32,110 nt of DNA. Origin: Candidatus Aenigmatarchaeota archaeon. GTDB lineage: Archaea > Aenigmatarchaeota > Aenigmatarchaeia > QMZP01 > QMZT01. The notes beneath the pieces are model-generated. The model worked only from the letters and a program-made list of their open reading frames with translations. It did not search any database and was not told the DNA's origin. The DNA lies in contig JAGGYQ010000075.1 in assembly GCA_021162425.1 (NCBI GenBank), positions 1 through 32,110 on the forward strand, given 5' to 3'. Positions within the stretch are counted from its first letter, which is position 1; every line of letters starts with the position of its first letter. Below, piece after piece: positions 18,026 to 19,543 of this stretch. The position numbers were made by a program, and so were the translations under genes.

Positions 18026-18348
18026 TGAAAGCGATGGCAGAGGATAAATTCCCATACATTCAGGCATTTCCCAAGCGGCCAGAAGATAAGGAATCCTTTC
18101 CGGTCGAGGTTAAAAAAGGCAAAATAAAAATACCCAAGGATTTAATAAAACATGCAGGACTTGATAGTGGCAGATACTGCATAACAGGCTTTCCTGATCC
18201 ACCTTCCCTTAAAATCTGGAACATTGAGATAATAGAAAAATATCTGTTTTCAAATAAAGAAGACCTGATAGACCCCTCATTTTATTTGAATATTTTCAAT
18301 ATGTCCCTAATTTCAGCGTTTGTCTTCACACCTGTTGCGCATAGATGA
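18025..18348 (+). CDS. Small protein with possible AbrB/SpoVT-like segment, overlapping trm1 3' end
   Basis: VEVKKGKIKIPKDLIKHAGLDSGRYCITG; GTG start; 67-nt antisense overlap with trm1. Confidence 0.5.
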   Translation: MKAMAEDKFPYIQAFPKRPEDKESFPVEVKKGKIKIPKDLIKHAGLDSGRYCITGFPDPPSLKIWNIEIIEKYLFSNKEDLIDPSFYLNIFNMSLISAFVFTPVAHR

Positions 18349-19340
18349 GTTCTTGAAGCTGCAAAGCCATGTTTTCGCAGAGTTTCTATGACATTTTCGA
18401 TTTTCGGTGAGCTGATTTTAAGAAATTTTGAAAGGTGATGAAGGTCGTAATAGAATGGATGATCTACTTCCTGCGAGCAAATTTCAATTTCTTTTTTACG
18501 AGCAAATTTCAAAAGCATTTTTTGAACGAAGGCTCTGTCTTGGATTTTTCCTGTCCACAGCGGTCCGAGGATTTTCATACGGCTTTCGCAGTTATCACAT
18601 GTTTTTTCAATGCCAATTTTCTTGTTGTGGCAGTTCGAGCAATACGAAACCATCTGAATTTTCGAAAGATTTTTGTCAGGTCCATATTCAATCTGGCCTA
18701 CTACTCGGAAATAATGGTTTGCATGTGAATACAGGGGTTTGAAAGTCATATTATGTATGGCAAGATTTTGCAAAATTGATGTTATGAGGACACGAACGCC
18801 GAGCTCTTTTGCAAAGTCCGTTCGTTCTACAAACACACCATATCTCCTGAAACACGCCTTAGCGAACTTTCCTGAGAGCGCACCGGAATCAGTTGCTGTC
18901 ACCCCGATTATCGAGTCTTTATGCAGGGTGAACCCAACATTTCGGAGATAGCGGGCAGGCGAGCCGAACGGGTCAATGTCCACGAAATCGTATTTCCTCT
19001 TTTCAAGAAAGAGGAGATTTGCATCTTTGTTACAGATTTCGTATCTGGATTTTTTAATACAGTTCACTTCAAGATTTTTTTCTATCAGTTTTACAGCGTT
19101 TGGATTGGCGTCGTTGAATACAACCTTCTGAATAGTTGGAACCTCGAGCAGAATCCTTATCCCACGAACGCCTGTTGCAGCGAGCGGGTCGAGTGCTTCC
19201 TTAGGTTTCGTGAGTTGAAGGATAGCGATAGTCACATCTCTCTGGTATTCCATTCCAGGGTTGTAGAACGCCTCGCTTCTCTTTGTCAGGGATTCAGAAG
19301 GAACGCAGACTTTTGCTTCACCTTCAGTCACAATTTTCAT
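18282..19340 (-). CDS. trm1: tRNA (guanine26-N2)-dimethyltransferase Trm1
   Basis: EGEAKVCVP..FYNPGMEYQRDVTIAIL, DPLAATGVRGIR, DIDPFGSPARYL, GVTATDSGALSG, zinc-binding CSNCHNKKIGIEKTCDNC. Confidence 0.96.
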   Translation of the reverse strand: MKIVTEGEAKVCVPSESLTKRSEAFYNPGMEYQRDVTIAILQLTKPKEALDPLAATGVRGIRILLEVPTIQKVVFNDANPNAVKLIEKNLEVNCIKKSRYEICNKDANLLFLEKRKYDFVDIDPFGSPARYLRNVGFTLHKDSIIGVTATDSGALSGKFAKACFRRYGVFVERTDFAKELGVRVLITSILQNLAIHNMTFKPLYSHANHYFRVVGQIEYGPDKNLSKIQMVSYCSNCHNKKIGIEKTCDNCESRMKILGPLWTGKIQDRAFVQKMLLKFARKKEIEICSQEVDHPFYYDLHHLSKFLKISSPKIENVIETLRKHGFAASRTHLCATGVKTNAEIRDILKIFK

Positions 19341-19374
19341 GAAAATGGATTTCGATGGAGAAAATAAAAAGATA

Positions 19375-19508
19375 TGGGACGGGTGGGATTTCCAACATAA
19401 GGGAGCCTTCCCCTCCCTTATCCTTTCCGAGCCAGCGATGTTTCAAATTTTGAACCCACGACACCCAGGTCTTCAGCCTGGCGCTCTCCCGGGCTGAGCT
19501 ACCGTCCC
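19375..19508 (-). tRNA. tRNA-Phe(GAA) with 60-nt intron in the T-loop
   Basis: GGGACGG TA GCTC-AGCCCGGGA-GAGC G CCAGG-CTGAAGA-CCTGG GTGTC GTGGG-TTCAAA[60 nt]T-CCCAC CCGTCCC A; all arms pair once the insert is removed. Confidence 0.9.
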
Positions 19509-19543
19509 GTATAACCAATATTACTTTTGGTATGATTTAAAAA

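Follow-up and report, generated by a model that had tools for sequence, protein, structure and literature searches.

We identified, in a 32,110-nt stretch of an Aenigmatarchaeota genome (the window), a tRNA-Phe(GAA) gene interrupted in its T-loop by a 60-nt insert at position 59/60, which is very likely a spliced non-canonical intron of the bulge-helix-bulge (BHB) type. In our preferred explanation, which we consider likely, the intron would be removed by the endonuclease EndA and the exons joined by RtcB, and the intron core would be a captured hairpin element that is probably mobile between lineages. As an intron the insert belongs to a known kind, since 59/60 is a listed site of archaeal non-canonical BHB tRNA introns (PMC4090602). 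The new part is the shared hairpin element, which provides a concrete lead on the spread of tRNA introns, described as an open question (PMC4090602).

The gene occupies 19375-19508 on the minus strand, with a precursor of 134 nt and a mature product of 74 nt. Read from 19508 to 19375, it runs GGGACGG-TA-GCTC...GAGC-G-CCAGG-CTGAAGA-CCTGG-GTGTC-GTGGG-TTCAAA, followed by the 60-nt insert and T-CCCAC-CCGTCCC-A, and its acceptor (GGGACGG/CCGTCCC), anticodon (CCAGG/CCTGG) and T (GTGGG/CCCAC) stems are perfect. Exon 1 (19449-19508; tRNA positions 1-59) ends in GTGGGTTCAAA, the intron spans 19389-19448, and exon 2 (19375-19388) supplies T60, the 3' strands of the T and acceptor stems and the discriminator A. 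A first-pass annotation had proposed a tRNA-Phe(GAA) with a non-canonical T-loop intron, specifying a 60-nt insert between TTCAAA and T of the T-loop, a TTCA/TGGA helix with one G-U pair and bulges AAA and AAT, a hairpin ATAAGGGAG-GGGAAGG-CTCCCTTAT inside the intron, and no anticodon-loop intron; each of these can be read in the minus strand, where the anticodon is GAA and the hairpin lies at 19397-19421.

The annotation had also predicted that excision regenerates an intact T-loop. ARAGORN found no tRNA over the window and made no call on the unspliced gene, and a scan of the window with all Rfam models returned no tRNA or other RNA family at E 1 or better; once 19389-19448 was removed, ARAGORN called a 74-nt tRNA-Phe(gaa), as predicted. 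The insert is not a product of chance: its excision leaves a perfect tRNA, and the genome contains the hairpin 14 times but its reversed control not once. A second intact tRNA-Phe gene, named in the annotation as contrary evidence, was also searched for: the gene at 19375-19508 is the only tRNA-Phe-like one found in the 92.6%-complete genome, and two further matches to the tRNA-Phe search pattern are taken as chance because the reversed control gave one as well.

By sequence reading, a TATA (box A)-like motif (TTTTTAAAT; 19535-19543, minus strand) precedes tRNA base 1 by about 27 nt, and a T-rich stretch that may act as a terminator (TTTTTATTTT; 19361-19370, minus strand) lies just 3' of the gene. 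The next gene downstream is trm1, encoding a tRNA guanine dimethyltransferase (18282-19340, minus strand; PF02005, E 3e-92; TIGR00308 over cut-off), which also lies 3' of tRNA-Phe in the relatives G006 and G007. The shared strand and direct adjacency (18282-19508) raise the possibility that a tRNA and a tRNA-modifying enzyme are co-transcribed.

At the junctions, the exon strand TTCA (19451-19454, minus strand; positions 54-57) can pair with the intron strand TGGA (19391-19394, minus strand), flanked by the 5' bulge AAA (19448-19450) and the 3' bulge AAT (19388-19390). This is BHB geometry, two 3-nt bulges around a 4-bp helix, and it is not the unconstrained energy minimum of the precursor: that minimum has a different fold at -53.8 kcal/mol, compared with -49.5 kcal/mol when the cloverleaf and BHB are enforced (37 C), a difference of 4.3 kcal/mol. 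The stability of the junction fragment is likewise ordinary (z 0.13). We rejected folding energy as proof of the BHB for these reasons, and since the unconstrained fold differs, the BHB was tested by comparison across introns. Owing to runs of A, shifting the junction upstream by one or two bases would leave the mature tRNA-Phe unchanged; the BHB picks 59/60.

Among 21 T-loop introns from this genome and its relatives that keep a 4-bp helix (read by eye, with non-tRNA matches dropped), the intron base opposite tRNA base 57 tracks that base, forming A57-T in 14 and G57-C in 6, with a single mismatch. Within the window's genome, introns ending in TGGA accompany exons with TTCA, and an intron ending in CGGA accompanies an exon with TTCG (contig C31), a compensating change of the kind expected if exon-intron pairing guides splicing. 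In two other Aenigmatarchaeota, B50_G15 and S141_163, the element abuts the exon and most introns keep a relaxed 3-bp helix (three of four pairs). The tRNA-Phe genes of five members of the same family also carry introns at 59/60, of 68, 31, 39, 38 and 10 nt (G002, G004, G005, G006 and G008, respectively), all of them without the hairpin element; G007 has no intron at this site, and many other relatives lack a T-loop intron. The BHB reading of the tRNA-Phe insert is thus well supported by sequence comparison. The 10-nt intron of G008 (AATTTGAAAA) is very small for a BHB intron, and its start resembles that of the window's intron.

The genome encodes an epsilon2-type EndA and RtcB, predicted by homology, which would suit cleavage at non-canonical sites and ligation. 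The single EndA (contig C72; 400 aa) comprises two PF01974 stretches and an N-terminal PF02778 domain, aligns over its full length with the three-unit EndA of ARMAN-2 (PDB 4fz2; E 7.8e-104) and retains the Tyr-Lys of the ARMAN-specific loop. These residues, Y160-K161 in ARMAN-2, matter for the broad specificity of that enzyme (PMC12397907).

The tRNA-Phe gene is not the only interrupted one. Introns in the D-arm, anticodon arm and/or T-loop were observed in many other tRNAs, at eight further loci of this genome, and a single gene can hold up to three introns; multi-interrupted tRNA genes have been described for Thermoproteales (PMC4033280, PMC8450103). ARAGORN found only two tRNAs in 15 tRNA-bearing loci of the genome; in genomes of this type, many tRNA genes escape the standard finders.

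The hairpin of the tRNA-Phe intron is part of a 41-nt interspersed element, of which the window holds a single unit of 38 nt (19397-19434, minus strand; E 2.1e-8 with covariance model R1, built from 42 copies), lacking 3 nt between the G-rich 5' part and the hairpin. The first-pass annotation had not linked the hairpin to this wider set of copies in many other tRNA introns and, in other archaea, at intergenic sites. Allowing up to three mismatches, the pattern ATAAGGGMGGGNNNGGCKCCCTTAT matched 14 times in the 954-kb genome. These 14 copies are distributed over eight sites, each a tRNA locus. At seven of the sites the copies lie in a T-loop intron flanked by two recognisable exons, in tRNA genes for Phe, Val, Ala, His and three more; the eighth site is where contig C24 begins, and there a gene of this kind is represented by its 3' end alone. 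The larger introns are tandem arrays of at least two units in the same orientation.

Could the hairpin simply be intron sequence, carried along as an ordinary T-loop intron family spread from tRNA to tRNA within this genome only? Such spread has a precedent in Thermoproteales (PMC4033280, PMC4090602), and of the seven T-loop introns for which both exons can be seen, six have a common 3' end through TTGGAAA/TC and a single orientation. We nevertheless consider it unlikely, and already weakened by intergenic copies in other archaea. In Pyrohabitans (about 20 copies) and in Thermoplasmata, the element, with its conserved 5' part and covarying stem, is found between protein genes. It also occurs in anticodon introns of G013 and S141_163, with the hairpin end at or beside the exon, and is reversed inside the T-loop introns of B50_G15, where the hairpin end lies against TTCAAA. 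Altogether, six other Aenigmatarchaeota carry the element of about 41 nt in tRNA introns, often in the opposite orientation.

The exact pattern, searched across genomes of 84,980 species (GTDB), occurs in 27 stretches, all archaeal, from Aenigmatarchaeota, Pyrohabitans/Hydrothermarchaeota, Thermoplasmata, Altiarchaeota, Woesearchaeota and unassigned bins; the carrier genomes are metagenome bins. IMG/VR viral contigs gave no match to either hairpin type or to the 5' part, and viral carriers were rejected on this ground; matches in phage and plasmid records were partial and at chance level only. Our literature search, which included the literal sequence, found no earlier report of the element, only chance letter matches.

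Several arrangements were observed in passing. At five loci from several archaea, the element lies a few bases from the 3' end of an intact tRNA gene. At one locus of S141_163 (L190), a tRNA carries the element in both its anticodon and T-loop introns, and this T-loop intron contains a second long hairpin nested between GTTGA repeats. At four loci of Thermoplasmata AUK050, the element is found among other short hairpin repeats (AAAGCCCCTTT and GCCTCGCAGAGCGAGGC), and tRNA genes seem to be interrupted by some of these repeats as well.

The structure of the element itself is kept. Changes on both sides of the 9-bp stem were counted in 22 cells, a figure reached by none of 500 shuffles. We scored column couplings over 60 distinct full-length copies: in the 5' part, column 14 follows the pair formed by columns 20 and 38, being T where that pair is A-T (32 copies) and G where it is G-C (24 copies), which accounts for 56 of the 60, and columns 6 and 28, the latter in the loop, make Watson-Crick combinations (C-G in 27, A-T in 22; none of 2000 shuffles), although the shuffles ignore descent and subfamily structure could explain part of these couplings. 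Simple linkage is nevertheless disfavoured, as the T/A/T and G/G/C types are found side by side in five different loop backgrounds. Both couplings (14-20-38 and 6-28) fall in one antiparallel register (i+j = 34). The element further contains four near-invariant GG pairs (columns 2-3, 7-8, 26-27 and 31-32; column 2 at 83%), and all eight of these G are present in 43 of the 60 copies.

T.A-T and G.G-C are classical antiparallel triplex triples, and a GG-N3-GG ... GG-N3-GG arrangement suits a two-layer quadruplex. Because the couplings match such triples and the GG spacing suits such a quadruplex, we hypothesize that the G-rich strand of the element may adopt a triplex-quadruplex fold. It would act in DNA and not in the tRNA precursor, given that the element is found in tRNA genes in both orientations.

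A structure kept with compensating changes could also mark a selected functional site that does not move, such as a protein-binding site, a transcription stop or a regulatory hairpin, and several copies in Pyrohabitans, examined by eye, lie just upstream of promoters. The distribution speaks against this explanation, which we likewise consider unlikely. Of 156 Aenigmatarchaeota genomes scanned with the covariance model, only 7 have the element, and the eight remaining members of the window's family gave no match; in the phylum to which Pyrohabitans belongs, 5 of 23 genomes have it. Its occurrence in both orientations and inside tRNA introns is also at odds with a fixed site, as is the change in tandem unit number between close relatives: in two Pyrohabitans genomes whose shared loci are about 90-97% identical, several orthologous sites hold units of differing number and subtype, and at one such site one of the two genomes has a 43-bp unit, of another subtype, that the other lacks.

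If the element moves, a REP/PATE-like unit mobilised by a Y1 transposase of the IS200/IS605 type might be considered, as it is small, hairpin-ended, structured on one strand and multicopy, and the window's genome has Y1 genes (G000:C15:194-553 and C33:34525-34674). This is less probable still: no Y1 was detected in the other eight carriers searched, including the Pyrohabitans genome with most copies, and tandem copies are co-oriented instead of forming inverted pairs. We therefore rejected Y1/HUH transposases as the general partner, absent as they are from eight of nine carrier genomes, and no transposase travelling with the element copies was found. No duplicated tRNA 3' end, the sign of an integrase site, was noted by eye beside the tRNA-Phe gene. 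Finally, a dead tRNA-Phe gene broken by insertion, which the repeat within the insert and the failure of tRNA finders at this locus might suggest, is very improbable given that every stem is intact, that no other tRNA-Phe-like gene was found, that promoter-like and terminator-like sequences lie on either side, and that 59/60 introns with a compensating BHB pair recur in the tRNA-Phe genes of relatives.

We thus favour a spliced 59/60 BHB intron with a captured hairpin element as its core. TTCA of the T-loop would pair with TGGA at the 3' end of the intron, the epsilon2-type EndA would cut each 3-nt bulge between its second and third bases, as the partners and sites suggest, and RtcB would then join the exons into an ordinary tRNA-Phe. 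A short T-loop intron, like the hairpin-free introns of 10-68 nt in relatives, may have taken up at least one element unit, which would be tolerated because the endonuclease needs only a short BHB at the intron ends; units could then have spread through the other tRNA introns of this genome and built up tandem arrays. The patchy distribution and the changes in unit number at orthologous loci suggest that the element is interspersed, captured by tRNA introns and probably mobile. Its uniform orientation within a genome, all forward in the window's genome and all reversed in B50_G15, would also fit copying from intron to intron without independent insertions.

A further-reaching reading, which we offer tentatively and regard as rather doubtful, is that these units constitute an undescribed mobile class of about 41 nt, with a triplex hairpin and a two-layer G-quadruplex cap, that crosses archaeal phyla, lands at tRNA splice sites and in intergenic regions, and is thereby the agent, so far missing, by which these archaea gain tRNA introns. 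The repeat inside the introns can now be named, counted and traced across genomes, including copies outside tRNA genes, and it thus becomes testable what binds and moves the 41-nt unit and whether insertion at BHB sites occurs.

Compared with known archaeal non-canonical BHB introns at 59/60 (Crenarchaeota, Nanoarchaeota and ARMAN), the position, the BHB geometry and the setting in a genome of multi-intron tRNA genes are found here as well, while the host lineage, Aenigmatarchaeota, is new and the intron core is a repeat that also occurs outside tRNA genes. REP/REPIN sequences with their RAYT transposases resemble the element as short structured interspersed repeats that are intergenic in some hosts (PMC3116915, PMC2817692). 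The archaeal element differs in being few-copy, in forming co-oriented tandem units without the inverted pairs of BIMEs and REPINs, in being inserted in tRNA introns, and in the absence of a Y1 (RAYT) transposase from eight of nine carriers. Rickettsia palindromic elements are bacterial palindromic repeats that invade both RNA and protein genes; they are longer, and the likeness to the archaeal element is one of description only. The epsilon2 tRNA-splicing endonuclease of ARMAN-2 (PDB 4fz2, 9w2k) has a full-length homologue here with the loop Tyr-Lys kept (PMC12397907), although ARMAN-2 belongs to another phylum and the Aenigmatarchaeota EndA is known here from its sequence. Another parallel is the intron transposition of Thermoproteales, in which near-identical introns occur across tRNA identities within one genome (PMC4033280, PMC4090602), likewise seen here at eight tRNA loci. 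The present repeat differs in that it is not confined to tRNA introns, being intergenic in Pyrohabitans and Thermoplasmata, and is a nameable 41-nt unit: it can face either way, occupies anticodon introns as well as T-loop introns, and forms tandem arrays.
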